Assembly (NCBI RefSeq): GCF_009834545.1
Contig: NZ_CP019427.1
Span: 4,036,001 to 4,100,000 of the forward strand
Direction: 5' to 3'
Source: Pseudomonas sp. S04
Lineage (GTDB): Bacteria; Pseudomonadota; Gammaproteobacteria; Pseudomonadales; Pseudomonadaceae
Length of the DNA stretch: 64,000 nucleotides
Part shown: positions 43,559 through 64,000 of the stretch, one piece after another
Numbering within the stretch: position 1 is the first letter of the stretch
Layout of the letters: each line of letters starts with the position of its first letter
Made by a program: the position numbers and the translations under genes
Notes under the pieces: model-generated
Databases searched by the model: none
Told to the model about the DNA's origin: nothing
The model's input: the letters and a program-made list of their open reading frames with translations, nothing else

Positions 43559-43634
43559 CTGTAGCACCTTTTTCTGCTCTTTGCATTGCACGATCCGATT
43601 TGCTGGCCAGTTGGTGGCGAACAATGCGGCTAGG

Positions 43635-43736: not shown

Positions 43737-43829
43737 CGACCTATCCCCTCCTAAAGGTATCTAACATGCGGCCCGGACGCAGAATCACGCGATAGACTTT
43801 GGTGCCTCGCGGATCTGCTGCGAGCCCTT

Positions 43830-43837
43830 CCAGAACC
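43830..43837. repeat. Target site duplication, left copy
   Basis: CCAGAACC directly before the left end of IS66 copy 2; repeated at 45879-45886. Eight bp is the usual IS66 duplication length. Confidence 0.95.
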
Positions 43838-43922
43838 GTAAGCGCTCCATAAACCCCACATTCAAACTCACCACCTGATCCCCGATGCTGTGCTCCCGAT
43901 TCCTTTCCGGAGCCAGCACCTC

Positions 43923-44282
43923 ATGATGCGTCCCGACGCAAAAGTCGAAAAAGTCTATCTCTACCCCAAGCCCGTCGACTTCCGAAAATCCATCGACGGC
44001 CTTGCCGCTCTGGTCGAACAGGACATCAAGGTCGCGGTGTTTGACCCGGTGCTTTTCGTGTTCCTCAACAAGCCTCGAAACCGAGTGAAGATTTTGTATT
44101 GGGAGCGCAACGGCTTCTGCCTTTGGCTAAAGCGCCTGGAGTCCGAGCGCTTCAAAACATCGCCGGATTGTTCGGATGAAGCCATCGTACTGACGGTTCA
44201 AGAACTCAACTGGTTACTGGACGGTTTTGATTTGTGGCGCAACCGTCCGCATCAAGTTTTGACGCCTCGATTCGTCGCTTGA
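43923..44282 (+). CDS. tnpB: IS66 accessory protein TnpB, copy 2
   Basis: A 119-residue protein identical in sequence to the copy 1 TnpB, with the same spacing (18 nt) to tnpC and the same choice between ATG 43923 and an upstream GTG. Confidence 0.92.
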   Translation: MMRPDAKVEKVYLYPKPVDFRKSIDGLAALVEQDIKVAVFDPVLFVFLNKPRNRVKILYWERNGFCLWLKRLESERFKTSPDCSDEAIVLTVQELNWLLDGFDLWRNRPHQVLTPRFVA

Positions 44283-44300
44283 TTCGGTATAATCCAGGGC

Positions 44301-45833: not shown

Positions 45834-45878
45834 GCGCGCCGCCTATTTTTGAATAGGTGGGGTTCATGGAGCGCTTAC

Positions 45879-48077: not shown

Positions 48078-48869
48078 GTGAAACCTCGCTCCTCTTTCCA
48101 GATTCAAAAATCAGTCATCTTTGCTCTGATACTGCGTGAGGCCCGGGCGCGGTTCGGCGACCGTAGAATGGGGGCTGTGTGGACGTTGATTGAGCCGATC
48201 TGCCATCTATTGCTTTTCACCCTACTTTTTTCTCTGATTCGCGGCAGAACTGTCGCTGGCGTCGAATATCCCGTATTCGTGCTTGTCGGAATGGCCCCAT
48301 TTTTACTCTATCGCAACATTGCGCTTCGATTAATGGACAGCCTTAGGGAAAATCGCTCACTTTTTGCTTACAAACAGATCAAACCGCTGGATACCTACAT
48401 CGCTCGCGCATTGGTAGAAGCGTGTATCAGCGCCACGGTGTACGCGATATTGGTATTTGGCTTCGCTTGGTTCGGTTTCGATATGACGGTGCACAGTCCA
48501 CTACAGTGGACGGCTACGCTCAGCATCGGGCTTCTATTTGCTTTCGGCCTGGGGATGCTGCTGGCATTGGTCACTCACGCCCTACCCAGCCTAAAAATAG
48601 TGATTCGGATGGCTTTTTTCCCTCTTTACTTCATTTCTGGTGTTCTGATGCCCGCATCCTACCTTCCTCAAGAGATGATGCCTTTGTTGCTATTAAATCC
48701 ATTTCTGCATCTGGTTGAACTGGTCCGCGCCGAAGTGTTGCCGCACTACGCCCCCGTAGACGGCGTATCTATCCAGTATGTGATTACGTTCACTGTGATT
48801 TTGCTGTTCGTAGCTCTGGGCAGCTATCGCGCTCGTCGCCTGCATTTGATTTCCACGAAGAACGGATGA
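48078..48869 (+). CDS. kpsM: Capsular polysaccharide ABC transporter permease (KpsM-like)
   Basis: A 263-residue ABC-2 type inner-membrane permease with six hydrophobic helices. The amphipathic start LILREARARFGDRRMGAVWT and the PLYFISGVLMPASYLP and LLLNPFLHLVELVRAEVLP segments match KpsM/CtrC/BexB closely in order. It pairs with the ATPase encoded 12 nt downstream to export lipid-linked capsule polymer. The start is a GTG at 48078 with a weak ribosome site. It is the first gene of the rightward capsule operon. Confidence 0.92.
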   Translation: MKPRSSFQIQKSVIFALILREARARFGDRRMGAVWTLIEPICHLLLFTLLFSLIRGRTVAGVEYPVFVLVGMAPFLLYRNIALRLMDSLRENRSLFAYKQIKPLDTYIARALVEACISATVYAILVFGFAWFGFDMTVHSPLQWTATLSIGLLFAFGLGMLLALVTHALPSLKIVIRMAFFPLYFISGVLMPASYLPQEMMPLLLLNPFLHLVELVRAEVLPHYAPVDGVSIQYVITFTVILLFVALGSYRARRLHLISTKNG

Positions 48870-48881
48870 GGATCGGCAAAC

Positions 48882-49535
48882 GTGTTTGAGCTCAAGAACG
48901 TCACCAAGTCCTACCTCACTCCAAAAGGTCGGAGGCATGTTTTCCGCAACCTTTCACTATCGATTCCACCAGACAAGAATATTGCTCTGATCGGACGAAA
49001 CGGCGCAGGCAAATCAACGCTGATGCGTCTCCTTGGTGCCGCCGACATTCCTGACTCAGGCTCCATCGTTACTGACAAAAGCATTTCCTGGCCCGTCGGA
49101 CTCTCGGGTGGTTTTCAAGGTAGCATGACCGGTCGCGACAACATCAAATTCGTTTGCCGAGTTTACGGCGCTGAAGGCGATGCAATGCGTGAAAAGGTTC
49201 GATACGTGCAAGACTTCGCTGAAATCGGCGACTGGATTGACGAACCCATCAAGACCTATTCGTCAGGCATGCGTTCACGCTTAGCCTTCGGCCTCAGTAT
49301 GGCCTTTGACTTCGATTACTACTTGATCGACGAGGTAATGTCAGTGGGCGACGCCCAATTTCGACGCAAGTGCGCAGAAGTTTTTCAGGAAAAGCGCCAG
49401 CAATCAAAAGTCGTACTGGTAACTCACAACATGCCCGAAGTCGAAAAGCTCTGCGACATCGTTCTATTGATCAACGACGGCAATATCCAGATCTACGAAG
49501 ACGTCGCCGAAGGCATCAAGGCATACAACACCTGA
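48882..49535 (+). CDS. kpsT: Capsular polysaccharide ABC transporter ATPase (KpsT-like)
   Basis: A 217-residue ATPase. Walker A is GRNGAGKST (near residue 38), signature YSSGMRSRLAFGLSMA (near 125), Walker B YYLIDEVMS, and the switch histidine in VTHNM. Its short length without a C-terminal carbohydrate-binding domain is typical of KpsT/CtrD rather than the O-antigen Wzt type. GTG start. It powers export of capsule polymer through the KpsM-like permease. Confidence 0.93.
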   Translation: MFELKNVTKSYLTPKGRRHVFRNLSLSIPPDKNIALIGRNGAGKSTLMRLLGAADIPDSGSIVTDKSISWPVGLSGGFQGSMTGRDNIKFVCRVYGAEGDAMREKVRYVQDFAEIGDWIDEPIKTYSSGMRSRLAFGLSMAFDFDYYLIDEVMSVGDAQFRRKCAEVFQEKRQQSKVVLVTHNMPEVEKLCDIVLLINDGNIQIYEDVAEGIKAYNT

Positions 49536-49587
49536 ACAAACATCTTCCTATATCGCAGCACCGTTTCACATCAAGGATGCATCACAT

Positions 49588-50694
49588 ATGAGCAGTACGG
49601 GTAAACTCAAGAGCTGGCGCCTGGCAATTGGCCTGGTCGTCCTTCCACTAGCCTTGGCAGCCATTTACTACGGCATGTTCGCCATTGATCGTTATGTGAG
49701 CTCCGCGCAAGTGGTCGTGCGCCAGGACGGTGGCAACCCAGGCGCTGCCGTACCCGGACTGGCAACCTTGCTCACTGGCACCAATCCTGCCTCGCGCGAA
49801 GAAACCCTCTATCTGCGCGAGTATATCGTGTCCATGGACATGATGCTGCTGCTGGAAGAACGCTTGCACTGGATCGAGCAATACGCCGCCCAGCGCAACG
49901 ATATTTTCTTCTGGCTGGACAAGGACGCCGAGCGCGAAGACCTGCTCAAGTACTACCAGCGCATGGTTTCTGCCCACTACGACGAAACCACCGGCCTGCT
50001 GCGCGTCGAAGTCCAGGCGTTCACCCCGGAATTGTCCGAACAGATGCTGCGCACCATCCTTGAGGCCAGCGAGCATTTCGTCAACGAAGTCAGCCACAGC
50101 ATCGCTCGCGAGCAAATGGCCTTCGCCAAGAGCGAACTGGAAACCGCGCGCGTCAACTACGCCGAACGCAAAACCGAGTTGCTGGACTTCCAGAACGACA
50201 ACAAGGTACTGGACGGTGCCAACACTGCACAAAGCCGCGCAACCATCATTGCCGACTTGGAAGGCCAGTACACCAAGGAACAGGCAATCCTCACCGAGAT
50301 GCAATTCAAGTTGCGCGCCGACTCACCGCAGGTGAAACAGCAAAAGCAAAAGGTCAATGCCATTACTCAGCAACTAGCCAAGGAAAAGCGCCTGCTGGTT
50401 TCCTCGCCCAATGGCTCGCAACTGAACGTCGTCGCCTCGCGCTTCCAGCAACTGACCCTGGATGCAGGCATCGCCGAAGAAAGCTACAAGACAGCCGTCG
50501 CTGCCCTCGACAATGCCCGTATTGAAGCCAGCAAAAAAATTCGCACCCTGGTCACAGTAGTCAGCCCGAACAGTCCGCAACTCGCCTTGTACCCAGAGCG
50601 TCTGTACAACCTGGCAACGATCTTGCTTGGCCTGCTCATGCTGTACGGCATCACCCGCTTCATCCTGGCTTCGATCGAGGATCATCGTGATTAA
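49588..50694 (+). CDS. kpsE: Capsule export inner-membrane protein (KpsE/CtrB-like, PCP-3 family)
   Basis: A 368-residue polysaccharide co-polymerase-type protein. Two transmembrane segments (about residues 12-32 and 341-362) flank a large periplasmic coiled-coil domain (IAREQMAFAKSELETARVNY ... ILTEMQFKLRADSPQVKQQ). The PNSPQLALYPERLYN segment before the last helix is characteristic of the family. It links the ABC transporter to the outer-membrane channel. The kpsD gene begins 8 nt inside its end. Confidence 0.92.
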   Translation: MSSTGKLKSWRLAIGLVVLPLALAAIYYGMFAIDRYVSSAQVVVRQDGGNPGAAVPGLATLLTGTNPASREETLYLREYIVSMDMMLLLEERLHWIEQYAAQRNDIFFWLDKDAEREDLLKYYQRMVSAHYDETTGLLRVEVQAFTPELSEQMLRTILEASEHFVNEVSHSIAREQMAFAKSELETARVNYAERKTELLDFQNDNKVLDGANTAQSRATIIADLEGQYTKEQAILTEMQFKLRADSPQVKQQKQKVNAITQQLAKEKRLLVSSPNGSQLNVVASRFQQLTLDAGIAEESYKTAVAALDNARIEASKKIRTLVTVVSPNSPQLALYPERLYNLATILLGLLMLYGITRFILASIEDHRD

Positions 50695-51778
50695 ATCCCT
50701 TACAACTCCAGCAAAATTCAAACTGAAACTGGCAGCGCTGGCCCTCGCCGGCCTGGGACTCAGCGGTTGTGGCGGCACGCTGTCGGGCGCAGGCCCGTAC
50801 AAGGGTGATATCGAGAGCAAGAACGAAACCTACAACCTGGTCGAGATCAACGCCAACACCATCGGCCCCTACATGCGCGGTGCCGTGCGCCCGGTGCAAG
50901 CCTCGATTGCCAAGCCAGTCGCGCCTTCCGCGCGCCTGATGGCTGGCGACATCCTCAATGTGCTGATCACCGACAACGCCCCTGAAGGCTCGGCGCTGTT
51001 CGCCCCGCTCTCCAGCGGCGGCACCCAACTGAAGACCCGCATTGACGATCAAGGCATGATTTCCCTGCCCTACGTCGGTCGTCAGTTCGTGGCGGGTATG
51101 ACCCTCAACCAGGTTGAGAACATGATCCGCAAGCAGCTCAAAGGTGTCACAACCGACGTACAAACTCACGTTGAACTGGTGGGCGATCTGTCGGGGTCGG
51201 TACTGGTTGCCGGCGCGGTGAAATCCCCTGGCCGCTTCAGCACCCTGCAGGGTCCACTGACCTTGCTGGACGCCGTCAACCAGGCCGGTGGTCCGGTGCT
51301 TGAGCCTCATCTGGTCAATGTCACAGTGCGTACCGGCAGCCAGGTGCAACAGTTCAACTATGAAGACGTGCTGGCCGGCAACAACATGGTGCTGCGCCCG
51401 AACTCGGAAGTCGTCCTGGACCGCGCTCGCCAACGCTTCGTTGCAATGGGCGCTGTCGGCGAGCCCGGCCTTAAGGATCTTCCTGGGCAGAACACCAGTT
51501 TGCTTGACGCTTTGGGTAGCGTCGGCGGCCTGAGAGAAGCCAGCGCGAACCCAGAGGGCGTATTTGTCTTTCGCATGGGCGAAGGAACCAATGCCAAGCC
51601 TACTGTTCTACGCCTGGACATGCGTGATCCAGCAGCCGTTTTCTATGCTCGCCAGATCATAGTCAAGCCTGATGACACCATTTACGTAACCAACGCAGCA
51701 GTTTACGAGTGGCAAAAAGTTATCTCGCCAGTCGTACAAACCATGATGTTGGGCCGTGCCACTGGCGCCTACAAGTAA
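50687..51778 (+). CDS. kpsD: Capsule export outer-membrane lipoprotein (KpsD/Wza family)
   Basis: A 363-residue polysaccharide export protein. A signal peptide ends in the lipobox LSGC (lipidated cysteine C28). It contains the poly-export domain (LMAGDILNVLITD ... DDQGMISLPYVG) and two SLBB-type repeats (VAGAVKSPGRFSTLQGPLT; MGAVGEPGLKDLPGQNTSL). At this length it is closer to Wza/CtrA/BexD than to E. coli KpsD (over 550 residues). The GTG start at 50687 has GAGG upstream and overlaps kpsE. Confidence 0.9.
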   Translation: MIKSLTTPAKFKLKLAALALAGLGLSGCGGTLSGAGPYKGDIESKNETYNLVEINANTIGPYMRGAVRPVQASIAKPVAPSARLMAGDILNVLITDNAPEGSALFAPLSSGGTQLKTRIDDQGMISLPYVGRQFVAGMTLNQVENMIRKQLKGVTTDVQTHVELVGDLSGSVLVAGAVKSPGRFSTLQGPLTLLDAVNQAGGPVLEPHLVNVTVRTGSQVQQFNYEDVLAGNNMVLRPNSEVVLDRARQRFVAMGAVGEPGLKDLPGQNTSLLDALGSVGGLREASANPEGVFVFRMGEGTNAKPTVLRLDMRDPAAVFYARQIIVKPDDTIYVTNAAVYEWQKVISPVVQTMMLGRATGAYK

Positions 51779-51811
51779 CTTTATAAATTCGATCAGCGAT
51801 AGGGAAATTAC

Positions 51812-53242
51812 ATGATCCCGGTAATTCTTTCTGGCGGCTCCGGCTCCCGACTTTGGCCACTTTCGCGTGCCATGCACCCGAAGCAATTCCTGACCCTGCA
51901 CGGCGACCAGTCGCTATTCCAGAATACGCTGTCGCGCCTCGCTGGCATTCAGGATGGACCACTGACACCGATTGTCGTCAGCAACGAAGACCACCGTTTC
52001 CTGGTTGCCGAACAGTGCCGCGCACTGGGCATCAACCCACAAGCCATCCTGCTCGAGCCAATCGGTCGCAATACTGCGCCTGCGATTGCTGCAGCGGTCG
52101 TGAAAGCACTGGCAACCGGCAAGGATGAGCTGCTGCTGGTGCTGCCAGCTGACCACGTCTTCGATGACCTGGAAGCACTGCGCGCCGCCTTCCAGAAGGG
52201 CGTGCCCGCTGCCCGTGATGGCCGCATCGTGACATTCGGCATCGTGCCTAACAAAGCGGAAACCGGCTACGGCTACATCCGTGTGGCCGAGAAGTCGAAT
52301 GCTATTCAGGCAGTCGATGAGTTTGTCGAAAAGCCGGATCTGCCTACCGCCGAACACTACGTCGCCGACGGCCGCTACTACTGGAACAGCGGCATGTTCC
52401 TGTTCCAGGCGTCGAGCATGCTCGCCCAGTTGCGCGAGCACGCACCCCAAGTGCTGGCAGCGGTAGAAGCTGCACTGAGCAACGCCAAAGAAGACATGGA
52501 TTTCACGCGCCTCGACATGCTGAGCTTCGCGGCCGCTGAAAACATCTCGATCGACTATGCCGTGATGGAACGCTCCGACCAGGTCTCGGTTGTGCCTCTG
52601 GATGCAGGCTGGAACGACGTGGGCTCGTGGTCGGCGGTCTGGGAGATCGCAGACAAAGACGCGCAAGGCAATGCCTCTCGTGGCGACGTGATGCTTGAAT
52701 CCACCAGCAATGCCTATGTTCACGCTGAACATCGTATGGTGACAGTCCTGGGACTCGATGACGTGATCGTGGTGGAAACCGCAGACGCTGTGATGGTCGC
52801 CGCCAAAGACAAGTCACAAGACGTCAAGCTCCTGGTTGATCGCATCAAACAGAGCGCCCGCACGGAAGCGACCAACCATCGCAAGGTATATCGTCCATGG
52901 GGCGCCTACGATTCCATTGATAATGGACCTCGTTACCAGGTGAAGCGCATCACTGTTTCCCCAGGACAGAAACTCTCGGTACAGATGCACCATCACCGTG
53001 CAGAACACTGGATTGTTGTGACTGGCACAGCAAAAGTGTCGATTGGCGATAAGCAGATACTGCTCACCGAAAACCAGTCGACCTATATTCCAGTTGGGGT
53101 AGTACACGCACTTGAGAACCCAGGGAAAATCCCTCTGGAAATGATTGAGGTGCAGTCGGGTGGTTACTTGGGCGAAGATGACATTGTCCGTTTTGAGGAC
53201 CGCTACGGCCGTAGCGTTGAGTCCCAGCGAGTGCCTGCATAA
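51812..53242 (+). CDS. manC: Mannose-1-phosphate guanylyltransferase / mannose-6-phosphate isomerase
   Basis: A 476-residue bifunctional type II enzyme of the ManC/AlgA/WbpW family. The N-terminal nucleotidyltransferase shows LSGGSGSRLWPLSR (residues 6-19), EKPDLPTA and YYWNSGMFLF; the C-terminal cupin isomerase shows PGQKLSVQMHHHRAEHWIVV. It makes GDP-mannose from fructose-6-phosphate via mannose-6- and mannose-1-phosphate (with a phosphomannomutase from elsewhere). In this locus it suggests mannose or a GDP-mannose-derived sugar in the capsule. Confidence 0.93.
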   Translation: MIPVILSGGSGSRLWPLSRAMHPKQFLTLHGDQSLFQNTLSRLAGIQDGPLTPIVVSNEDHRFLVAEQCRALGINPQAILLEPIGRNTAPAIAAAVVKALATGKDELLLVLPADHVFDDLEALRAAFQKGVPAARDGRIVTFGIVPNKAETGYGYIRVAEKSNAIQAVDEFVEKPDLPTAEHYVADGRYYWNSGMFLFQASSMLAQLREHAPQVLAAVEAALSNAKEDMDFTRLDMLSFAAAENISIDYAVMERSDQVSVVPLDAGWNDVGSWSAVWEIADKDAQGNASRGDVMLESTSNAYVHAEHRMVTVLGLDDVIVVETADAVMVAAKDKSQDVKLLVDRIKQSARTEATNHRKVYRPWGAYDSIDNGPRYQVKRITVSPGQKLSVQMHHHRAEHWIVVTGTAKVSIGDKQILLTENQSTYIPVGVVHALENPGKIPLEMIEVQSGGYLGEDDIVRFEDRYGRSVESQRVPA

Positions 53243-53339
53243 CCTCGAGTAACCGCGTACAAAAACCTTGTGCGAATTAGTAGCAAGCCCTGCTCCTCAA
53301 CGTTAAAACGTCGGGAGCACGGCAAATCAAAGTGCAGAT

Positions 53340-54791
53340 ATGAACATACTTATTCAATGCGGCGACCACTTAGAGAACCAAAACAGAATAATGACACTGG
53401 CCCTTGAACTCAAAGAGGCTGGGCATTCACCGACAATCCTTTTGTACTCTAACTTAAAGGGACGTTACTTCGAGAACAAGGGAATCAATACCATTTCACT
53501 CGAAGCGCATGCTTTCCAAGACACTCCAGCAAAAGAGATTACAATCGATTCCTTTCTCGAGGACGGGATCAAATATAACGATGTAATGGTTGCTGAAGCA
53601 AGAAGACGTCCAATCGTGGGCTGGCCCGGACAGCGCGTAAAAACCATCCGAGACATCCATAGGATCCACAAGACGCTTTCTCACATCATATCAACCCAAA
53701 ACCCAGAAAAAATAATCATCTGGAACGGGTTCACAGGATATGTTGCCAATATCCTGCGGCTTGTCTGCGAGCATCGAAAAATAGAGTGCGCATTCCTTGA
53801 GCGCGGACTGCTTAAGGGCTCACTTTTTATTGATCGCCTAGGCGTGAATGGCGCTTCATCGCTAAATCAACTGACCCCTACCTCAGTCGACAATTACTTA
53901 CTGTCGAGCGAGGAGACAACATTTGTAAAGCAGCTATTCAATATCGGCTCTCAAGCCATTGAAAAAGCCGAGCCCAAGAAAAACCTAAATATTTTTTTCC
54001 CACTGCAGGTTCAACTGGATACGAACATTATCCTGTACTGCAAATACCGCTCGATGCGAGAGACATTTTTAGACATTTACTCGGCACTGAATACTGCTGA
54101 CAGCTCCTTCCTGATTCGGCCACATCCAGAAGAGACCGCTGAAACGCTGATTAACATCCCTCGCTTTGACAATGTTAAAGTATCCAGTGAGAAAAGTCTC
54201 GACCATTGGCTGGACTGGTCGGATTTGGTCGTCACTATCAACAGCACCGTGGGTCTTGAGGCACTGATCAAAGGGAAACAGGTCATTTCCTTGGGACAGT
54301 CAATCTACTCCTCTGCGGGGCTGACAAGCGCACTCAACACCAAGAAACTACCTGGCGCCGTAAACCACCAAAGATTGATAAATTACTTAGGCATACTAGT
54401 AAAATCAAACTTACTTCTGCCGGATGGCCCGTACAACAAATCAGTAGTGAGCGAACAGCTTTCAATTAGTCCTGACAGCGTCTCGACCACTGACAAACAG
54501 CAAAATTCAGGAGCTGTTAAGCCCAAAGCCGAGACCGCCGAAGTGCACCTTGCCTTCCCACTTAACGCAACACTTGACCTGACATACAGAAAAAACAAGG
54601 CGCCCATCACCAAAGACTGGCTAACTGAAATAGCGAAGAAACATATAGATGCCAAGCAATATGAGTTCTCAACTTCAAGAAAGCCAAATAAAGACCGATA
54701 CTCTATTAAAATAGTCAATGAAGGCAAATCAGCAAAAGCTGACTATAAATTCAACAAGACTATCGACATTTACGGCAATGAAGTACGATAA
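53340..54791 (+). CDS. Capsule polysaccharide biosynthesis / glycosyltransferase-like protein (KpsC/KpsS-type fold)
   Basis: A 483-residue cytoplasmic protein, AT-rich compared with its neighbours. The first half resembles a nucleotide-sugar transferase (IIWNGFTGYVANILRLVCEH); the segment FLIRPHPEETAET (near residue 260) and VVTINSTVGLEALIKGKQVI (near 300) match the RPHP and S-x-x-G-x-E-A motifs shared with Kdo-transferase-type capsule proteins. The last 120 residues look unrelated and lysine-rich. Probably a strain-specific glycosyltransferase; acceptor and donor unknown. Confidence 0.65.
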   Translation: MNILIQCGDHLENQNRIMTLALELKEAGHSPTILLYSNLKGRYFENKGINTISLEAHAFQDTPAKEITIDSFLEDGIKYNDVMVAEARRRPIVGWPGQRVKTIRDIHRIHKTLSHIISTQNPEKIIIWNGFTGYVANILRLVCEHRKIECAFLERGLLKGSLFIDRLGVNGASSLNQLTPTSVDNYLLSSEETTFVKQLFNIGSQAIEKAEPKKNLNIFFPLQVQLDTNIILYCKYRSMRETFLDIYSALNTADSSFLIRPHPEETAETLINIPRFDNVKVSSEKSLDHWLDWSDLVVTINSTVGLEALIKGKQVISLGQSIYSSAGLTSALNTKKLPGAVNHQRLINYLGILVKSNLLLPDGPYNKSVVSEQLSISPDSVSTTDKQQNSGAVKPKAETAEVHLAFPLNATLDLTYRKNKAPITKDWLTEIAKKHIDAKQYEFSTSRKPNKDRYSIKIVNEGKSAKADYKFNKTIDIYGNEVR

Positions 54792-54806
54792 CCAGAGAAC
54801 ATACTC

Positions 54807-56375
54807 ATGAAAAAAATTGCGATCTTTATTGATACTATCAACGCCGCTCAGCAAGCAACAGTCAGCGAGCTATTGTCCAAGAACAAAGACAACACTTACA
54901 TTGGATTAAATCTAAAAAAAGTAACTCCACACCCCAATTTAAAGGACGCCAAGGATACTCAAGCCTTTTTGGACTTCTGCTGCAGCGCCCAAGACTTGAT
55001 CCTGATTGCACCGGACAATTTTTCTGTCGACGAAAAAATGCTCAACAGCTTTTTTTCCAACAGCCTTGGAAATGTTTGGCATATCCGTACCGATGGTAAA
55101 CTCGCCCGGTATAGGCTCAACCCGAACAGAAAAGCATCTACCCTGCTAGTATTCCCCGGCTCCATCCTGCCATTGACATTAGGGTCACATCAGCGCGTAT
55201 TCAATTTGCTGGTCAACCTCGGCAAGAATGGCATCCTGGTTGACGTATTGATCACCACCCCGAAAAATGTAAAACAAAGCGAATACCAAACAGCTCTAAA
55301 AACAATTTGTAATAATGTTTACATCTATAAAAACAACAAGAAAAAACATAGCACCACCGTAAACACCAAGCGCTACCTTGAATCCAAGGCACGAACTTTC
55401 CTGGGCAAATCAAAAGAGCTTCCCGAGCTATTCTCGGAGCGTTTGAATACTCGCCCAACAGAGTCGTGCAAACGCTGGGTAAACTCGCTCCATCTCGCAA
55501 ACAAATACGAGTCAGTTATCGTTTCTTATGCGTGGATGATGGGCGCACTTGAATACATAATACATGACAGCGATAACTTCAAAGTCATTTGCGACACCCA
55601 TGATGTCCAGTTCACCCGGAACGATGATATCTTGAATCGCAAGGAGCGCATTTTCTTCAATAGCTTAGCTGAAAAAAAATGCGAACTCGACGAGTTGAAA
55701 AAATGCGATTCGGTGCTTGCGATATCAGTATCAGATGAAGACATTCTAAATAAAGCCCTAAAAAAATCCGTTAACACCAATGTTATTCGCGCGTCTTCCG
55801 GATTTGATTATGCGCTTTCGCAGGTCAAGTCTCGCCCGCACGGAAAACCTCTGTTCTTCGGTTTTATCGGCGGCCAGATGTCGGCCAACGTAAAATCCCT
55901 GGTGCACATCCTGGACATTTGGTGGCCTGCGATAAAACAGTACTCGCCAGACAGCAAGCTGTTCATAGCAGGCTCCATTTGCAAATCCGCAGAAATCCTG
56001 CCAAAGATCTTTCTTGACACCAATATCGTACCGCTGGGCTTCGTAAACAACATCGGTGAATTTTACAATAACATCGATGTTTCACTTAACCCGGTACTGG
56101 TGCAGGGCGGCCTTAATTTCAAAAGTGTTGAAGCTGTATTTTCCGGCAAGCACTTGGTCACGAACAAACTTGGCCAAGAGTGCTTAGGCACGGAGTTCCC
56201 CTCAACAATTGTTGAAAAGCCTGAAGATATCATTGAATTTATTTCAAAGTACGAATTCAATCTAAAAAAATGTTACGGCATTCGGGTAGCCAACCAGAAC
56301 AAAGCGAAACAACTCTTCGCAAACAAAAAGACCTACCGCGAGCTCGTCAATTATCTAGCCGGCCAGCACGCATAG
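54807..56375 (+). CDS. Glycosyltransferase-like protein (GT-B, GT4-type)
   Basis: A 522-residue protein, AT-rich. Residues about 110-200 (VFPGSILPLTLGSHQRVFNL) and 235-340 (VICDTHDVQFTRND, SDEDILNKAL) fit the acceptor domain of GT4-like enzymes; FFGFIGGQMSANVKSLVHIL, LFIAGSICKSAEI and VSLNPVLVQGGLNFKSVEA (about 350-445) fit the donor domain, with the E of the GT-B E-x7-E region. It lies 15 nt after the previous gene, so the two probably work together on the strain-specific glycan. Confidence 0.7.
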   Translation: MKKIAIFIDTINAAQQATVSELLSKNKDNTYIGLNLKKVTPHPNLKDAKDTQAFLDFCCSAQDLILIAPDNFSVDEKMLNSFFSNSLGNVWHIRTDGKLARYRLNPNRKASTLLVFPGSILPLTLGSHQRVFNLLVNLGKNGILVDVLITTPKNVKQSEYQTALKTICNNVYIYKNNKKKHSTTVNTKRYLESKARTFLGKSKELPELFSERLNTRPTESCKRWVNSLHLANKYESVIVSYAWMMGALEYIIHDSDNFKVICDTHDVQFTRNDDILNRKERIFFNSLAEKKCELDELKKCDSVLAISVSDEDILNKALKKSVNTNVIRASSGFDYALSQVKSRPHGKPLFFGFIGGQMSANVKSLVHILDIWWPAIKQYSPDSKLFIAGSICKSAEILPKIFLDTNIVPLGFVNNIGEFYNNIDVSLNPVLVQGGLNFKSVEAVFSGKHLVTNKLGQECLGTEFPSTIVEKPEDIIEFISKYEFNLKKCYGIRVANQNKAKQLFANKKTYRELVNYLAGQHA

Positions 56376-56430
56376 GCGTGCAACTAATATTAGTCTTCAG
56401 AATAATGCAGTCAGTTACTGACTGCTATAA

Positions 56431-57297
<867 letters not shown>

Positions 57298-57328
57298 AAC
57301 AGCGGTTCTTGACGCAAGGATTGTGAAC

Positions 57329-58615
57329 ATGGCAAGTACAGAACAACGGGTCGCGATCGTCATTCCGGCCCGCTATGGCTCGACACGCCTGCCGGGCAAA
57401 CCGCTGGCCGACATTGCCGGCAAGCCGATGGTGCAGCACGTTTACGAACGCGCCCTGCAAGTGGGCAATGCCCAGGTAGTGGTAGTAGCCACCGACGATG
57501 AGCGCGTCGCGCAAGCGGTGCGGGCTTTCGGCGGTGTATGTGTAATGACCTCGCCGGACCATCCGTCCGGCACCGACCGCCTGGCAGAAGTCATGGCCCA
57601 GGTCGACGCGGACATCTACATCAACCTGCAGGGTGATGAACCGCTGGTGCGTCCAGCCGACATCGAAGCCCTCGCGGCCGGCATGCTCGCCGATGCGCAG
57701 GTGAAGGTCGGCACCCTGTGCCACCCGATCGATGCGCACGAAGCCGGCAACCCCAACACCGTGAAAGTGGTGTTGGCCAACAACGGCAACGCCCTGTATT
57801 TCAGCCGCTCACCGATCCCCTACCCACGGGATGGCGAAGTTGCGCACTACCTCAAGCACGTAGGTGTGTATGGCTATCGTCGCGAAGTGCTGGCCGACTA
57901 CAGCGGCTTGCCGCAACCGATGCTCGAGCACGCCGAGAAACTCGAACAACTGCGACTGATGGCGGCTGGTTACTGCATTCGTGCGTATCTGGTTGAACCG
58001 ACCGGTCCGGGGGTCGATACACCGGAGTGCCTGGAGCAAGTGCGGGCAATCATGAGCGGCCAGGCGCCTGCGCCACAGCCGACCCTGAACGACGTGCGCC
58101 TGGTGATCACCGATGTCGATGGCGTACTGACCGATGGTGGCATCTATTACGACGCCACGGGTGAATGCCTGAAGCGCTTCCATGTGCGTGATGGCATGGG
58201 CATGCGCCTGCTCGAAGAGAACGGTGTACGGGTGGCGGTGCTGTCCGGCCGCGACTCGGCGACGCTGCGCAAGCGCGTGGCTGACCTGGGCATCACCCTC
58301 TGCCAGTTCGGCGTCAAGGACAAGCAGGCCGCCTGCAATCAACTGATGGCCGAGGCCGGCGTCAGCGCAGCGCACACTGCGTGCATCGGCGACGACTGCA
58401 TCGACCTGCCGGCCTTTGCGGCCTGCGCCCTGTCCTTCGCAGTGGCTGACGCGCCGGTGTACGTGAAAGCCGCGGCCACCCACACGCTGAACGCAGCAGG
58501 CGGTACTGGCGCGTTCCGTGAAGTCGCGGACGCGATTCTGTTTGCCCAGGGCAAGGAGGCCGTACTCGGCACTGCGGCAGGTTATGCGCAGGTGATGGCG
58601 AAGATGGCGCAGTAG
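57329..58615 (+). CDS. Fused CMP-Kdo synthetase / Kdo-8-phosphate phosphatase (KdsB-KdsC)
   Basis: A 428-residue two-domain enzyme. Residues 1 to about 248 are KdsB: IPARYGSTRLPGKPLADIAG (nucleotide loop), INLQGDEPLV and the SRSPIPYPRD segment. Residues about 255-428 are KdsC, a HAD phosphatase: motif I VITDVDGVLTDGG (D262, D264), VAVLSGRDS, K in GVKDKQAA, and GDDCIDLPAF. One protein would remove phosphate from Kdo-8-phosphate and then activate Kdo with CTP. The ATG at 57329 follows AAGGA by 8 nt. No frameshift or stop at the domain junction. Confidence 0.92.
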   Translation: MASTEQRVAIVIPARYGSTRLPGKPLADIAGKPMVQHVYERALQVGNAQVVVVATDDERVAQAVRAFGGVCVMTSPDHPSGTDRLAEVMAQVDADIYINLQGDEPLVRPADIEALAAGMLADAQVKVGTLCHPIDAHEAGNPNTVKVVLANNGNALYFSRSPIPYPRDGEVAHYLKHVGVYGYRREVLADYSGLPQPMLEHAEKLEQLRLMAAGYCIRAYLVEPTGPGVDTPECLEQVRAIMSGQAPAPQPTLNDVRLVITDVDGVLTDGGIYYDATGECLKRFHVRDGMGMRLLEENGVRVAVLSGRDSATLRKRVADLGITLCQFGVKDKQAACNQLMAEAGVSAAHTACIGDDCIDLPAFAACALSFAVADAPVYVKAAATHTLNAAGGTGAFREVADAILFAQGKEAVLGTAAGYAQVMAKMAQ

Positions 58616-58669
58616 TGGATGGACTAGCTGGCGCGGGCGATCTGTTGGTCGCCTTCGCTGACTGAAACG

Positions 58670-58708
58670 AAAAAACGGTAGGAGCCACTAGCTCCTACCG
58701 TTTTTTTT
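58670..58708. terminator. Strong terminator after the kdsBC fusion
   Basis: AAAAAACGGTAGGAGC / GCTCCTACCGTTTTTTTT around loop CACTA; A and T tails on both sides let it stop both the rightward kdsBC and leftward kdsD transcripts. Confidence 0.93.
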
Positions 58709-58767
58709 GCTACCGAACATGGCAGCTCAGGGTCGTCTCGACCCCGAACTTTGCACCTGCAATACGA

Positions 58768-59700
58768 TCAGTCGAAGATTTCGACCACGCCAACCACCGC
58801 GTTTTCGTGGTTGGTCACAGCCAGGGCACGGATCTTGTTATCAAGCATGTAGGCTTCGGCCTCGGCCAGCTGCGAATCATCCTTGATGGTGTGCGGCTTG
58901 GGGGTCATGAAGTGAGCGACGGTGGTGTGGATTACCCCTTCGTCTTCCAGCAGCGCACGACGCAAGTCGCCGTCGGTAACGATGCCGACCAGAACACCGT
59001 CGTCCATCACAACCGTCAGGCCCATGCGGCTTTGGGTCATGACCATCAGGCAGTCGTGGAAACTGGTGGCCGGCGTCACGATCGGTGCCGGTGTGTGCAT
59101 CACGTCGCTGACGCGGGTCAGCAGTTTACGTCCCAGGCTGCCGCCCGGGTGGTAGCGTGCGAAGTCCATCGGTTTGAATTGCAGGGCCTCGATCAAGGCC
59201 ACTGCCAGGGCGTCACCCATGGCCATGGTCGCCAGGGTCGAGGTGGTCGGCGCCAGGTTGTTCGGGCACACTTCGCGCTCGACGGAGATATCCAGCCAGA
59301 TATCGGCGTGCTTGGCCAACGTCGATTTACCGTTGCCGGTCATCGCGATGATTTTGTTGCCGAAGGACTTCAGGCTAGGGATCAGCTTGATCACTTCTTC
59401 GGTTTCGCCGCTGTAGCTGATCAGGATCAGCACGTCGATCGGCTTGAGCATGCCCAGGTCGCCGTGGAAGGCTTCGGCTGGATGCAGGAAGAAGCTCGGG
59501 GTGCCGGTGGAGGCGAAGGTGGCAACCATTTTTTGCCCGATCAGGCCGGATTTGCCCATGCCACAGACCACAGCACGACCTTTGCAACCGAAGATCAGCT
59601 CGACGGCATTCTGGAACTCACCATCCAGGCGAGCGGCCATCTGAGTGACGGCCTGCGCCTGGGCGATAAGGGCTTCTTTAGCGATAGCGAGGTGATTCAT
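58768..59700 (-). CDS. kdsD: Arabinose-5-phosphate isomerase (KdsD/KpsF)
   Basis: A 310-residue isomerase converting ribulose-5-phosphate to arabinose-5-phosphate, the KdsA substrate. SIS domain (about residues 35-165) with GMGKSGLIGQKMVATFASTG and ISYSGETEEVI; the family's PTTSTLATMAMGDALAV and ARYHPGGSLGRKLL motifs; then two CBS domains. The start MNHLAIAKEAL at 59700 is family-like; the open frame upstream is not. It is the only capsule-locus gene here on the reverse strand. Confidence 0.93.
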   Translation of the reverse strand: MNHLAIAKEALIAQAQAVTQMAARLDGEFQNAVELIFGCKGRAVVCGMGKSGLIGQKMVATFASTGTPSFFLHPAEAFHGDLGMLKPIDVLILISYSGETEEVIKLIPSLKSFGNKIIAMTGNGKSTLAKHADIWLDISVEREVCPNNLAPTTSTLATMAMGDALAVALIEALQFKPMDFARYHPGGSLGRKLLTRVSDVMHTPAPIVTPATSFHDCLMVMTQSRMGLTVVMDDGVLVGIVTDGDLRRALLEDEGVIHTTVAHFMTPKPHTIKDDSQLAEAEAYMLDNKIRALAVTNHENAVVGVVEIFD

Positions 59701-59938
59701 GTTTGACTTTCGTCCCTGAAAACAACGTAGTGTTAAGCGGCGAATTTTAAGGTCTTTGCAACATTTAGCAAAGTCCCAATCCTGCACGCAGAGGATTTTA
59801 ACCGGTTTAATGCCGCCTCGAGCCACGGCAGCGGCGTTTTTAGTAAACTTTTCGTTGAATCAGTGATCTGTATCACGCAGCATATTGTTACCAAAACCGC
59901 TACAAATCGGACATACGGCACTTGCCTAAGTTGAAGTC
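59701..59938. promoter_or_regulatory. Divergent promoter region kdsD / kinase
   Basis: 238 bp, AT-rich around 59720-59910, which must carry promoters for kdsD (leftward) and the kinase-kpsC-kpsS transcript (rightward). I could not fix a single -10/-35 pair. Confidence 0.4.
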
Positions 59939-60979
59939 ATGAATCTGGATCTACACCCCCTGCAAGGCCGCAGAATCATCTACCGTTGGCAACAAGGCAC
60001 CCTGCAACAGCACTTACGCGCCTTGCTGCCCCACTGGGGCAATGAGCCACTTTCCATTAGCAGTCAGGACCTGGACTCCAACGCCTCCTTCGTCAATTAC
60101 GTGCGCCATCATCGCCTGGTGGATCCAAGCAATGGTCAGACCTTGGATCTGGTGGAAAAGTCCATTCGCAAAGTGGCTTTTATTGGCAGTCAGGAAGCGC
60201 GCTTCTATCGCACCGGGGAGATGCTCGAGGGCAGCGAACATTTTCAGTACCCGGCCTGCCTGGGGGTAATCGAAACCCCGTGGGAAAGCTTGATCTTCAC
60301 TGACTTCGTCATTGGCAAACCGCCGCGCATGCACGCGATCGCTCCCCAACTGGCGCTGGGCATCGCTGAACTGGAAAGCCTCAGTCACCGCTTTCTCGAT
60401 TCTCGTCCAGTGCATCAGGCGCCCCTGTACTGGAGCATGGACTTCTACCGCCCGTGGTTCCTGCTGCGCCCGCGCTTCAACTTCGCCCGCTGCCTGCCCG
60501 AGCTCGAACGCCTGGCGCAGAGCGATGAGCGCTTCGCCGGCCTGGCCGATTCATTCAAGGCTTTCGAGCCCGAGTTGGCCCGCCTTGGTCGAGCCGCACG
60601 TCGTAGCCCACGCTGCATCAGTCACATGGACTATCTGCGTAAAAACTTGTTCGTCGATGGCGCAAAACTGCAATTGATCGACTGGAGCGAGGTCAAGGTC
60701 GGGCGCGTGGGTTTCGATGGCGGAGCCTACCTGGGGAGCTTGTTCCGGCGTAAGGACATGACATTGTTTCTTACCGCACAAAAGCAGTTCATCGAGACTT
60801 ATCGCAAAGCATTACCGGCAGAGTTCGATACCGACGATGCGCTGCGTAATCTGCACTACATGTTCCTGCTTAATGCACTCTTCCATTGCCTGCGCCCGGA
60901 GACTATCGCCGAGTACCAGGACAAGGAACGCATGCCCCTGCTTCGGCAGAAATATGATTACTTGCTCAGCTTGCTCTAA
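59939..60979 (+). CDS. Phosphotransferase of the aminoglycoside-phosphotransferase/kinase fold, capsule locus
   Basis: A 346-residue soluble kinase-like protein. Brenner-type catalytic loop ISHMDYLRKNLFVD (H229, D231, N236), metal aspartate in QLIDWSEV (D248), and N-lobe lysine and glutamate in DLVEKSIRK (K74) and GSQEARFY (E86). All key residues for phosphotransfer are present. No standard kps gene product has this fold. It may phosphorylate a sugar, a lipid-linked intermediate or Kdo. It is encoded between kdsD and kpsC in a rightward run with the Kdo transferases. Confidence 0.7.
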   Translation: MNLDLHPLQGRRIIYRWQQGTLQQHLRALLPHWGNEPLSISSQDLDSNASFVNYVRHHRLVDPSNGQTLDLVEKSIRKVAFIGSQEARFYRTGEMLEGSEHFQYPACLGVIETPWESLIFTDFVIGKPPRMHAIAPQLALGIAELESLSHRFLDSRPVHQAPLYWSMDFYRPWFLLRPRFNFARCLPELERLAQSDERFAGLADSFKAFEPELARLGRAARRSPRCISHMDYLRKNLFVDGAKLQLIDWSEVKVGRVGFDGGAYLGSLFRRKDMTLFLTAQKQFIETYRKALPAEFDTDDALRNLHYMFLLNALFHCLRPETIAEYQDKERMPLLRQKYDYLLSLL

Positions 60980-61144
60980 CGCCGCGGCGAAAATGATGGC
61001 ACACTGTCATCAAGGATTTTGTTGATCTATGTTGCGTATTCGTCCGAAAGACCGTTCTCCAATTATTAAATTGTATTAACATCCTCGCGATATTTGTTAA
61101 CGGTGGAGACCTCCAGCGTTAACACCTCCACAGCACACACTCGA

Positions 61145-63187
61145 ATGGATCTGCGCTTCACGTTTATGGATGACGTTTCTCCTCGCCCGCGTTTGTTGGT
61201 CCTCTCCAAGGGTGCCCAGCGCATCGTCACGCTACCCGCCTTGCTGCCCGATTACGCGCTGCATAACGGGAGCGTGGGCGATATGAATCAGGTCGACTGT
61301 GTCATGGCCTGGGGCCGCAAACCCAGTGCATTGAAGGCCATTTCCCACGCCTCGCAAGCGAACTTGCCGATCCTGACGTTGGAAGATGGCTTCATTCGTT
61401 CGGTGGGCCTGGGTGCCGATGAGCCACCACTCTCCCTGGTTGTCGACGACATGGGCGTCTACTACGATGCCAACGCGCCTTCACGACTCGAGCAACTTAT
61501 CGCCGAACCACTGAGTGGCGCCCAGGCCGAGCGAGCCCTCGCGCTGCAACAGCTGTGGCAACAGCAGCGAGTGTCAAAATACAACGACGCGCGTATCACC
61601 CACCCCGAACTGCCAGCCGATTGCGTACTGGTGGCCGACCAGACTTTCGCCGATGCGTCCCTGCAAGGGGCCACTGCGGCCGATTTCAGCGCCATGCTCG
61701 AAGCCGCCCTGGCGCGCTACCCCGCCAGCACCATTGTGCTCAAGGTCCACCCGGATGTGATCGCCGGGCGCAAGCGCGGGCATTTCGACCTCGCAGCCCT
61801 GGCCAACCACCCGCGAGTGCAGGTGTTGGTACAGAATGTCCATCCCGCCGAACTGCTGCCACACATGCGCGCGGTGTATGTGATGACTTCGCAGCTGGGC
61901 TTCGATGCCCTGCTGTGGAATGTCCCCGTGCACACCTGGGGCATGCCGTTCTACGCCGGCTGGGGGCTGACCGAGGATCGTCTGCCTGCACCGTCACGGC
62001 GCCAACCCGCCAGCCTTGCGCAGTTGATACACGCCAGCCTGGTGCGTTATCCGCGCTATGTCAGCCCCGAAACCGGTCAGCCCTGTACACCAGAAGTGCT
62101 GATGAATTGGCTCGGGCTGCAGCGTCGCCAGCGCAGTGCGCTGCCGGAGTCCGTGCAGATGCTGGGCTTCAGTCGCTGGAAAGAGCCACTGGTTAAGCTG
62201 TTCTTCAATGGTTGTGCCATTCAGTTCGTCAACCCCGCACAACCATTGGACGCCGCTCTCCCAGTGGTGTCCTGGGGCTGTAAGCATGACAGCGACCTGA
62301 CGCGACATGCGCAATTGGTCAGCCGGGTAGAGGACGGATTCCTGCGCTCGGTCGGCCTCGGCGCCGGCAAGGCCCGCCCGCTGTCGTGGGTCGTCGATGA
62401 CCTGGGCATCTATTACGACGCCACGCGCACCTCGCGCCTGGAACACATCTTGCTCAATAAGTCCTTTGACCCAGCGCTGGTAGCCCGGGCGCGAGCCCTG
62501 CGCGAAGCCATCTGCCACGCCGGGCTGACCAAATACAACTTGCCTGGCAACGCCTGGCAACGCCCCACCGCGGCACAACGAGTGATCCTGGTAACCGGCC
62601 AGGTTGAGGGCGATGCGTCTATCCGTTTTGGAGCAAACCGCATCCGCAGCAACCTGCAATTATTGCAGGCGGTACGCGAGCAGAACCCCGGTGCCTGGGT
62701 GCTCTACAAGCCGCACCCCGAAGTACTGGCTGGCACCCGCGCCCGAGGCGACGACGAGGCGCAGACCGTTAACTGGTGCGACGAAGTGATCGGCGATACA
62801 CCGTTGCAACAATTGCTGGAGTTGGTCGACGAAGTTCACGTCCTGACCTCGCAATCGGGCTTCGAAGCCCTGCTGCGCGGCGTACCGGTGACCACCTACG
62901 GCCAGCCGTTCTATGCCGGCTGGGGGTTGACCCAAGATCAGGACCTGCAACCCGAAGTACAGGCCAGGCGCATGCGCCGCCTGGACCTCGACGAACTGGT
63001 GGCCGGCACCTTGCTGCTCTACCCCACCTATGTCAGCCGCATCACCAACCGCTTTACCACTGCAGAACAGACTCTTTACGAATTACAGAATTGGCATGCT
63101 TTACCGCAGCCAGGAGCACCATCCAGATGGCAGGAATTGAAACAGCGCTTGAGCAGTTTATTGGGCATCAGTCGCCTGAGAAGCTGA
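61145..63187 (+). CDS. kpsC: Capsule beta-Kdo transferase KpsC, two modules
   Basis: A protein of about 680 residues made of two related modules. Each contains EDGF(I/L)RSVGLGA, VDD(M/L)G(V/I)YYDA, a HP(D/E)V(I/L)AG segment and a TSQ-x-GF(D/E)ALL...PFYAGWGLT block, once in each half. KpsC adds alternating beta-Kdo units to phosphatidylglycerol to form the capsule's lipid linker at the inner membrane. The start is uncertain: ATG 61145 is chosen, but GTG 61103 and ATG 61166 are possible and no site has a strong ribosome signal. The kpsS start lies 61 nt inside the end. Confidence 0.93.
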   Translation: MDLRFTFMDDVSPRPRLLVLSKGAQRIVTLPALLPDYALHNGSVGDMNQVDCVMAWGRKPSALKAISHASQANLPILTLEDGFIRSVGLGADEPPLSLVVDDMGVYYDANAPSRLEQLIAEPLSGAQAERALALQQLWQQQRVSKYNDARITHPELPADCVLVADQTFADASLQGATAADFSAMLEAALARYPASTIVLKVHPDVIAGRKRGHFDLAALANHPRVQVLVQNVHPAELLPHMRAVYVMTSQLGFDALLWNVPVHTWGMPFYAGWGLTEDRLPAPSRRQPASLAQLIHASLVRYPRYVSPETGQPCTPEVLMNWLGLQRRQRSALPESVQMLGFSRWKEPLVKLFFNGCAIQFVNPAQPLDAALPVVSWGCKHDSDLTRHAQLVSRVEDGFLRSVGLGAGKARPLSWVVDDLGIYYDATRTSRLEHILLNKSFDPALVARARALREAICHAGLTKYNLPGNAWQRPTAAQRVILVTGQVEGDASIRFGANRIRSNLQLLQAVREQNPGAWVLYKPHPEVLAGTRARGDDEAQTVNWCDEVIGDTPLQQLLELVDEVHVLTSQSGFEALLRGVPVTTYGQPFYAGWGLTQDQDLQPEVQARRMRRLDLDELVAGTLLLYPTYVSRITNRFTTAEQTLYELQNWHALPQPGAPSRWQELKQRLSSLLGISRLRS

Positions 63188-64000
63188 AGGCGCGGGCGCC
63201 CGATCGCCCTCTTCCGCCTCAGCCACACAACAGCTTCTTGTTCCTGCAGGGCGTCAGCTCGCCGTTCTTCGCGCGACTGGCGAAGGCCTTGCGGGCGATC
63301 GACCAGCGGGTGCACAGCATCAATTTCAACGTCGGTGATGTGCTGTATAGCGCCGGCTCGCGCCATGGTTTTTCGGCGCGCCCAGAAGAGCTCGATGCGT
63401 TCTATAGCCAACGGTTTCGCGACCTGGACATCACCGACCTGGTACTGTTCGGCGACTGCCGCCCGGTGCATCGCCCGGCCATCGCCCTGGCCCGGCGCCT
63501 GGGCATTCGTGTGCACGTGTTCGAAGAAGGTTACTTCCGGCCCTACTGGATCACCCTTGAGCGCGATGGAGTCAACAACAACTCCCTGCTGCCCCGGGAC
63601 CCGGATTGGTACCGTGAAGTCGGCAAGCACGTACCGCGCTATGACAATGGCAGCCCGTTCAAATTATCGTTCGTCTCCCGCGCCGCACACGATGTGGCCT
63701 ACCACTGTGGCGGCGCACTGAACAAACTGTGCTTCCCGCATTACCGCACCCACGCGCCCTTCAATGCCGCCAAGGAGTACGCCGGTTTCATTCGCCAGGG
63801 CGTGCGCCTGTTGTTCGCCGGACGGCGTGACGATGCGCTGGTGACCGAAGTGGCGCGTGAACGCCACCCGACCTTTTTGCTGCCGCTGCAACTGGACAGT
63901 GATGCGCAAATCAAGGATCACTCGGCGTTCGCCAACATGTTCGAAGTCATCGACCATGTCATTGCTTCGTTCGCCGCCTTTGCCCCAGGCGAGGTCCGCT
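63127..64000 (+). CDS. kpsS: Capsule Kdo transferase KpsS (N-terminal part, runs off the window)
   Basis: An open frame from the ATG at 63127 (GGAG about 10 nt upstream) to the window edge, 291 codons so far. It shows NSFLFLQGVSSPFFARLAKA, LVLFGDCRPVHRPA and VFEEGYFRPYWITLERDGVN, the typical KpsS pattern. KpsS adds the first Kdo to phosphatidylglycerol, after which KpsC extends it. The 61-nt overlap with kpsC suggests coupled translation. The C-terminus and catalytic second half are outside the window. Confidence 0.92.
   Translation, partial: MAGIETALEQFIGHQSPEKLKARAPDRPLPPQPHNSFLFLQGVSSPFFARLAKALRAIDQRVHSINFNVGDVLYSAGSRHGFSARPEELDAFYSQRFRDLDITDLVLFGDCRPVHRPAIALARRLGIRVHVFEEGYFRPYWITLERDGVNNNSLLPRDPDWYREVGKHVPRYDNGSPFKLSFVSRAAHDVAYHCGGALNKLCFPHYRTHAPFNAAKEYAGFIRQGVRLLFAGRRDDALVTEVARERHPTFLLPLQLDSDAQIKDHSAFANMFEVIDHVIASFAAFAPGEVR

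Follow-up and report, generated by a model that had tools for sequence, protein, structure and literature searches.

A Kdo-primed capsule locus of Pseudomonas sp. S04, probably of the rkp/wcb kind and with a putative lipid-anchor cassette of its own

The Sinorhizobium rkp-1 cluster, with the genes rkpA, G, H, I and J, is associated with a K-antigen or poly-3-deoxy-D-manno-oct-2-ulosonic acid (poly-Kdo) capsule. Here this cluster and other described capsule systems are compared with a capsule locus of Pseudomonas sp. S04. The locus begins in the analysed window, a stretch of 64,000 nucleotides (positions 4036001-4100000 of contig NZ_CP019427.1, from a one-contig 6.10 Mb genome with a completeness of 100), and extends from 48078 to ~81004, i.e. 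33 kb overall, of which 17 kb lie outside the window; coordinates past the window edge are given as window-equivalent positions (genome position minus 4036000). According to passages of PMC4881576, the products of rkp-1 make and modify a “specific lipid carrier”, the name given to the rkp/wcb polyketide lipid without a structure; the same passages report that rkp-1 has a role in capsule export, that one strain needs it for poly-Kdo secretion, and that other export genes are found in a separate region, rkp-3. The wcb/rkp clusters have been described, in an excerpt of PMC3908369, as combining a type I polyketide synthase (PKS; WcbR/RkpA) with capsule biosynthesis and export genes. In the group 2 capsules of E. 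coli (KpsFEDUCS-MT), KpsS acts on phosphatidylglycerol, and a (lyso)phosphatidylglycerol-(Kdo)n terminus defines the group (excerpt of PMC10148158).

We consider it fairly probable that the Pseudomonas locus encodes a Kdo-primed capsule, exported by an ATP-binding cassette (ABC) transporter, of the rkp/wcb kind, with its own machinery for a lipid anchor. It comprises a KpsM/T/E/D-type exporter, the CMP-Kdo genes KdsA, KdsB-KdsC and KdsD, and KpsS together with a dual-module KpsC, carrying the QxxxD nucleophile and the HP motif, and the base Glu in KpsC. The adjoining cassette holds a single-module reducing type I PKS and an alpha-oxoamine synthase (AONS), and genes for a short-chain dehydrogenase/reductase (SDR) and a lipoteichoic acid synthase-like (LTAS-like) enzyme adjoin KpsS, as in S. 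meliloti rkp-1. Chance similarity was ruled out as an explanation of the cluster by the E-values and the gene order. The first-pass annotation, made from the window alone, had suggested extending the sequence past 64000, which yielded a complete KpsS, a second KpsC and the lipid cassette.

In S. meliloti Ak57 (tblastn), a single stretch holds homologues of the PKS (33%, over the first 1510 residues), AONS (53%), SDR (31%), LTAS (27%), KpsS (38%) and KdsD (40%), with an export protein beside them; unlike in Pseudomonas, homologues of the GNAT, KpsC and PhyH proteins of the locus were not found in this 25 kb stretch. Whereas the other Sinorhizobium export genes are placed in rkp-3, the exporter, Kdo synthesis, two KpsCs and the cassette form a single 33 kb locus in Pseudomonas. 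N. europaea (L131) has homologues of the PKS (41%), AONS (60%) and KpsD, M, T and E, but no KpsS was found within its 19 kb stretch. A type I PKS within a capsule export cluster is common to this locus, Nitrosomonas rkp and Burkholderia wcb, the last likened by its description in PMC3908369, as excerpted. With E. coli group 2 the locus has KpsM, T, E, D, C and S and the Kdo genes in common; its KpsS belongs to another clade, and it additionally has a second KpsC and the lipid cassette. An E. coli plasmid copy carries KpsC-KpsS, with no SDR, LTAS or PKS in 19 kb and no AONS on the whole plasmid. Plain membership of E. coli group 2 was rejected, as KpsS lies outside the E. coli KpsS clade. Of the earlier description as a group-2-like, Kdo-primed ABC capsule, the Kdo-primed ABC part is therefore retained, whereas the comparison with E. 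coli group 2 is not, since the KpsS clade and the cassette differ. The lipid anchoring that had also been proposed remains likely; the KpsS clade and the rkp/wcb-like cassette make (lyso)phosphatidylglycerol an improbable anchor. A literature search on capsule, Pseudomonas, KpsC and KpsS gave no title about a Pseudomonas kps locus among the matches listed; one for rkpA, rkpG and rkpJ named together gave no match, and nothing on the cassette lipid was present among the matches listed.

If KpsS primes another lipid, it is expected to differ where the cassette exists, and a split of KpsS that tracks the lipid cassette is the most useful new result of this analysis. Among 299 genomes of the phylum, KpsS was found in 33 and AONS (threshold 1e-80) in 18; 12 genomes had both, six AONS without KpsS and 21 KpsS without AONS. 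The best KpsS score was at least 246.8 bits in the 11 genomes with AONS at 50% identity or more, and at most 245.5 bits in the 21 without AONS; in G264, with AONS at 42% identity, it was 203.8 bits. A tree of 70 KpsS rows shows one label change, with the cassette and non-cassette rows separated by a branch supported at 98/95 (G155 counted as positive; three of 73 rows were left out, L162 as duplicate and L084 and L124 as partial, and L185/G264, with its 42% AONS, was unlabelled). In the tree of all rows, one branch (93/84) divides 52 cassette rows (G155 and G961 included) from 26 others; labelled strictly by AONS, this tree has three changes, or one without G155 and G961. When named rows were added and four rows very similar to others thinned, E. 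coli KpsS joined a group of nine non-cassette rows (100/99); the group of cassette rows (95/87) took in those of S. meliloti, Paraburkholderia, Acidisoma and Novosphingobium. The clade of the Pseudomonas sp. S04 KpsS comprises loci of Sinorhizobium, Paraburkholderia, Bordetella, Achromobacter and Methylococcaceae.

The split was also applied as a prediction. In a sample of 321 genomes of the class, ten had KpsS besides the own genome, of which one (G279) had been drawn before, leaving nine fresh genomes: four with KpsS scores of 340-440 bits and five with 211-239. Three of the high-scoring genomes had AONS (57-71% identity, one with an internal stop codon), whereas none was found in the five low-scoring ones, so that AONS presence was as expected from the KpsS score in eight of nine. 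Twenty KpsS neighbourhoods were inspected (17 non-cassette, G961, and the cassette-positive G736 and G811; nine other AONS-minus genomes were left out), and among the 17 non-cassette ones an LTAS homologue (E 1e-6) was found in none and a distant SDR (29-32%) in two. The KpsS split may serve as a sequence rule for which capsules use which anchor.

Within Pseudomonas the locus is rare. The comparison across the genus that had been proposed as a check was carried out with the second KpsC (KpsC2) as query against 199 genomes, of which 12 gave any match, nine strong (own genome included) and three weak. Two KpsCs are present in each of these nine KpsC-positive genomes, and the order KpsC1-KpsS-SDR-LTAS-GNAT-KpsC2-(PhyH)-AONS-PKS recurs in them, whole or partial and with exceptions. 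AONS is present at 76-88% identity in seven of the eight other KpsC-positive genomes (8/9 including the own one), and in none of eight control Pseudomonas genomes, three of which were those with weak KpsC-like matches; the best match in the controls was a BioF-like protein at 35-37%. G003 has retained AONS and PKS in an unlinked position next to a different ABC transporter, at a distance of ~2 Mb. The poultry meat isolate Pseudomonas sp. TMW 2.1634 carries a nearly complete homologue of the locus on a plasmid of 99.7 kb, pL21564-1, which also has tra/trb genes and was typed as mobilizable; the inspected parts of this plasmid showed neither KpsM nor ManC.

Beyond Pseudomonas, the gene neighbourhood is common to Paraburkholderia and, in part, to S. 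meliloti. An alignment-based AONS scan of the species-genome collection gave 593 loci, and among the best 80 of these the inspected stretches held PKS (77), SDR (31), LTAS (35), KpsS (31), KpsC (21) and ABC/KpsE (23) homologues. In the 73 non-Pseudomonas loci of this set, PKS was in the stretch in 70, and KpsS, KpsC, ABC/KpsE, SDR or LTAS lay within 10 kb in 54; among the 51 of the best 80 loci with both flanks full, seven had no capsule, SDR or LTAS gene. In an order-level sample of 194 genomes, KpsC matched at 1e-50 in 26, nine of which had AONS at 1e-80. Sphingomonads make sphingolipids via their own serine palmitoyltransferase (SPT), and AONS might perhaps be unneeded there. Two Novosphingobium plasmids carry KpsS, SDR and LTAS together with a fatty-acid hydroxylase, with no AONS or PKS in the inspected stretch and, for one of them, no AONS match on the whole plasmid. 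Acidisoma has an exporter, LTAS, KpsC/KpsS, AONS (41%), SDR (30%) and a fatty-acid hydroxylase; PKS was not found within the 19 kb inspected. Both gene sets would fit a sphingoid-like lipid and prove nothing. As separate observations, the KpsC open reading frame (ORF) at five AONS loci (L105, L112, L128, L147, L150) consists of a C-module alone (346-459 aa), with an N-module elsewhere in the genome being possible, and an LpxC-family deacetylase lies between PKS and AONS in the cassette of a Paraburkholderia dioscoreae plasmid (L254, 25175-26089).

All cassette genes lie past the window edge. The SDR (64440-65216, plus strand) is followed by the LTAS-like membrane enzyme (65209-66735, plus), which matches LTA primase, the phosphoglycerol transferase GacH and LtaS, with the stretch around GANTVRTEF aligned in the LTA primase and GacH alignments. 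Then come the GNAT (ORF 66635-67318, plus, start uncertain), the 708 aa KpsC2 (67315-69441, plus) and a PhyH dioxygenase (69445-70488, plus). AONS (72076-73443) and the 2517 aa iterative type I PKS (73451-81004) are on the minus strand. The ketosynthase (KS), acyltransferase (AT), dehydratase (DH), enoylreductase (ER), ketoreductase (KR) and acyl carrier protein (ACP) domains of the PKS have recognisable active-site motifs, and no thioesterase was present among its domain matches; GHSVGE with YAFH is taken to indicate malonyl. AONS matches SPT, KBL and BioF structures over a common core; it differs from them by ~70-100 N-terminal residues outside these matches and by the adjoining PKS, and it falls under every listed NCBIfam cut-off.

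From gene content, motifs, recurring gene order and co-occurrence, we infer the nature of the lipid, the order of the steps and the role of the lipid as anchor. An iterative, fully reducing PKS would make a saturated acyl chain on its ACP, which AONS would release by decarboxylative condensation with an amino acid to give a 3-keto amine, and SDR would reduce this to a sphingoid-like base. GNAT may N-acylate the base, and the LTAS-like enzyme may attach a phosphoglycerol-type head group. KpsS would then place the first beta-Kdo on this lipid in place of phosphatidylglycerol, KpsC1 would lengthen the Kdo linker, two low-GC glycosyltransferases with GDP-mannose would make the serotype chain, and KpsMTED would export the capsule; KpsC2 may be a second beta-Kdo-type transferase with an altered acceptor site. 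The GNAT beside Paraburkholderia AONS has no significant similarity to that of Pseudomonas, which leaves its role as N-acyltransferase a guess. PhyH may be a lipid hydroxylase or a sugar hydroxylase. A PhyH homologue (38%) is also found between KpsC and KpsS in G319 (L236), a genome without the lipid cassette, which possibly points to a sugar rather than a lipid substrate. Since the exporter, Kdo synthesis, two KpsCs, KpsS and the full cassette lie in one Pseudomonas stretch, the question of a sphingoid-like capsule anchor can be addressed by deletions.

The two KpsCs differ at the acceptor site. Their modules align with solved KpsC structures, and KpsC1 keeps all checked catalytic and acceptor residues. 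Trp42, Glu66 and Asp67 have been described as absolutely conserved in both KpsC modules, with Trp42 in contact with acceptor Kdo residues (excerpt of PMC10148158). KpsC2 belongs to the KpsC family by homology and has the QxxxD and HP motifs, and of these three residues Trp42 is missing. In the N-module of all 15 readable KpsC2 rows (14 distinct), Trp42 is replaced by Ile, Tyr93 by His (E. coli numbering) and the Lys two places ahead of the HP His by Arg, while Glu66, Asp67, the QxxxD Asp and the HP His are kept; the other readable KpsC N-modules have Trp, Tyr and Lys in 40 of 40 cases (10 of 75 ORFs, i.e. eight duplicates and two odd long ORFs, were dropped from the alignment, and the Trp42 column was unreadable in 11 of 66 rows). 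KpsC2 is 68-82% identical in the other eight KpsC-positive Pseudomonas genomes, and its orthologues form a separate, long-branched clade in a quick tree made without bootstrap; the separate clades ruled out a recent duplicate of KpsC1. The C-module and PhyH are both missing in seven copies (G129, G137, G155, G178, L086, L087, L088) and both present in eight (own, G003, G157, G196, G198, L082, L084, plasmid), and in L082 KpsC2 is split in two ORFs. We read KpsC2 as a transferase that is still active and has switched its acceptor; it would be a natural variant of an enzyme whose acceptor Trp was described as invariant (PMC10148158, as excerpted).

Several observations weigh against an rkp/wcb-like capsule with its own anchor. 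Among the Pseudomonas genomes, G155 has KpsS, SDR and LTAS, but its PKS is shortened to 1232 aa, and neither AONS nor a GNAT match was found; G196 has AONS and PKS, but KpsS and SDR have been lost through a deletion that joins KpsC1 and the LTAS gene. The miss among the fresh genomes, G961, carries KpsS, SDR and LTAS on a 13 kb contig in which AONS was not found, and the KpsS of Cupriavidus USMAA2-4 is a member of the cassette clade, with no SDR, LTAS or AONS present within the 19 kb inspected. No nearby SDR was found in nine of the 31 KpsS-holding loci of the scan. The KpsS split itself has soft edges: the scores of both kinds nearly touch, most cassette-positive rows had entered the trees by way of their AONS, and a single family (f48) supplies 13 of the 21 non-cassette rows in the 70-row tree. 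The non-cassette SDRs are about as similar as the SDR of S. meliloti, so SDR identity alone does not tell the two kinds apart. KpsS works in the cytoplasm, whereas enzymes of the LTAS type are active outside it, so that a head group added before KpsS would need a lipid flip.

It could be argued that the capsule is E. coli-like, built on (lyso)phosphatidylglycerol, with the PKS/AONS cassette as an unrelated neighbour: KpsC1 and KpsS keep the family catalytic motifs, the group 2 KpsS of E. coli acts on phosphatidylglycerol (PMC10148158, as excerpted), and G155 keeps KpsC1, KpsS and the exporter despite its short PKS and missing AONS. We regard this as unlikely, given that KpsS lies outside the clade with E. 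coli KpsS, that the cassette tracks the KpsS clade, that AONS and PKS are retained even where unlinked (G003), and that rkp-1 is linked to capsule export and poly-Kdo secretion in passages of PMC4881576. Less probable still is a cassette whose product is a free secondary metabolite, or else a separate glycolipid sharing only the exporter. AONS relatives do exist in Planktothrix, under an annotated type I PKS on a plasmid, and as aminotransferase genes in two Streptomyces records, and six of the 18 AONS-positive phylum genomes have no KpsS match; yet AONS co-occurs with KpsS and KpsC, the neighbourhood recurs from Pseudomonas to Paraburkholderia and partly in S. meliloti, and eight of nine out-of-sample AONS predictions were as expected. 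For KpsC2, a decaying and functionless duplicate would account for the seven copies without C-module, for the long branch and for the split of the gene into two ORFs in P. putida 31753, but it is hard to reconcile with a gene present in all nine KpsC-positive Pseudomonas genomes, with the QxxxD Asp, the Glu, the Asp and the HP His kept in every row alongside the same three substitutions, and decay therefore seems improbable.

Extending the proposed sphingoid-like anchor beyond this locus, we tentatively suggest, as a possibility somewhat short of even, that Kdo-primed ABC capsules are of two biochemical kinds, distinguished by the first step of KpsS. The E. coli type would act on phosphatidylglycerol; a separate KpsS clade, extending from Pseudomonas to Sinorhizobium, Sphingomonadales and Acetobacteraceae, would act on a dedicated sphingoid-like amino lipid, produced by PKS and AONS or, in hosts that have such bases anyway, via an SPT-like route. 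The acceptor-switched Pseudomonas KpsC2 would moreover transfer Kdo, within this glycolipid, to an acceptor other than Kdo.

Inside the window, the first-pass annotation had recognised KpsM, T, E and D, KpsC, KpsS, Kdo enzymes and a GDP-mannose enzyme in one stretch, and all are open ORFs with strong family matches. The export genes come first, as it had noted, and comprise a KpsM-type ABC-2 permease (48078-48869, plus; Pfam ABC2_membrane 6e-16, NCBIfam KpsM NF050053 4e-52, under cut-off), a KpsT-type ABC ATPase (48882-49535, plus; ABC_tran 1e-15, Walker A GRNGAGKST, signature YSSGM), a KpsE/BexC/CtrB inner-membrane polysaccharide co-polymerase (49588-50694, plus; TIGR01010 5e-85, under cut-off) and a Wza/KpsD-type outer-membrane export protein (ORF 50627-51778, plus) with Poly_export and SLBB domains and a lipobox-like LSGC, whose real start is probably downstream of the ORF start. 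They are followed by ManC, the GDP-mannose pyrophosphorylase/isomerase (51812-53242, plus; NTP_transferase, MannoseP_isomer 3e-59), and by two low-GC glycosyltransferases that are probably serotype-specific, one of the Capsule_synth type (53340-54791, plus; Capsule_synth 6.5e-18, QxxxD motif) and one GT4-like (54807-56375, plus; Glyco_trans_1_4 1.3e-9).

The Kdo genes are on two strands, again as had been noted: the Kdo-8-P synthase KdsA (56455-57297; DAHP_synth_1 1e-69) and a KdsB-KdsC fusion of CMP-Kdo synthetase and Kdo-8-P phosphatase (57290-58615; NF009905 5e-101 and TIGR01670 6e-39, both above cut-off) on the plus strand, and the KdsD/KpsF arabinose-5-P isomerase (58768-59826; TIGR00393 1e-114) on the minus strand. 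Other KdsB-like (52%) and KdsC-like (41%) loci, separate homologues of the fusion, are present in the genome, which suggests a dedicated Kdo supply for the capsule. The loci of G196, G157, G198 and the plasmid likewise have the fusion at full length. An APH-fold kinase-like protein (59939-60979, plus; APH 1e-6) has homologues in six of the eight other KpsC-positive Pseudomonas loci and on pL21564-1. KpsC1, the dual-module beta-Kdo transferase (61094-63187, plus; Capsule_synth 2e-85), matches 6mgd, 6mgc and 8fuw. The beta-Kdo transferase KpsS (from ~63127, plus; Capsule_synth 3e-87, NF050054 5.6e-80, under cut-off, QxxxD) crosses the window edge, and in the genome it is complete up to its end at 64443. 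The NCBIfam scores against their cut-offs were 177.6/300 bits for KpsM, 269.5/600 for KpsS and 285.7/437.5 for KpsE, which makes these proteins homologues by those models rather than named equivalents.

Just ahead of kpsM, two minus-strand genes, 46276-47472 and 42233-43660, gave no Pfam match, and their products may modify or build the serotype chain. The former product has GTSN and DxxH-like stretches, which we take to be reminiscent of SGNH esterases; the latter, from a low-GC gene, begins with a stretch that weakly matches a TPR-type NCBIfam model. The low-GC gene is flanked by two near-identical IS66-type elements, 3985 bases apart (window 39852-45852; 100% identity over the 300 bases that were compared in full), and by a short third fragment in inverted orientation. 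Past the PKS, on the opposite strand, a free-standing ketoacyl synthase gene (82498-84695; L010 3498-5695) is followed by a galU-like gene and then by two transposase-like ORFs (L010 6961-9731), named from the look of their sequence alone, so that the far side of the locus also adjoins likely mobile elements.

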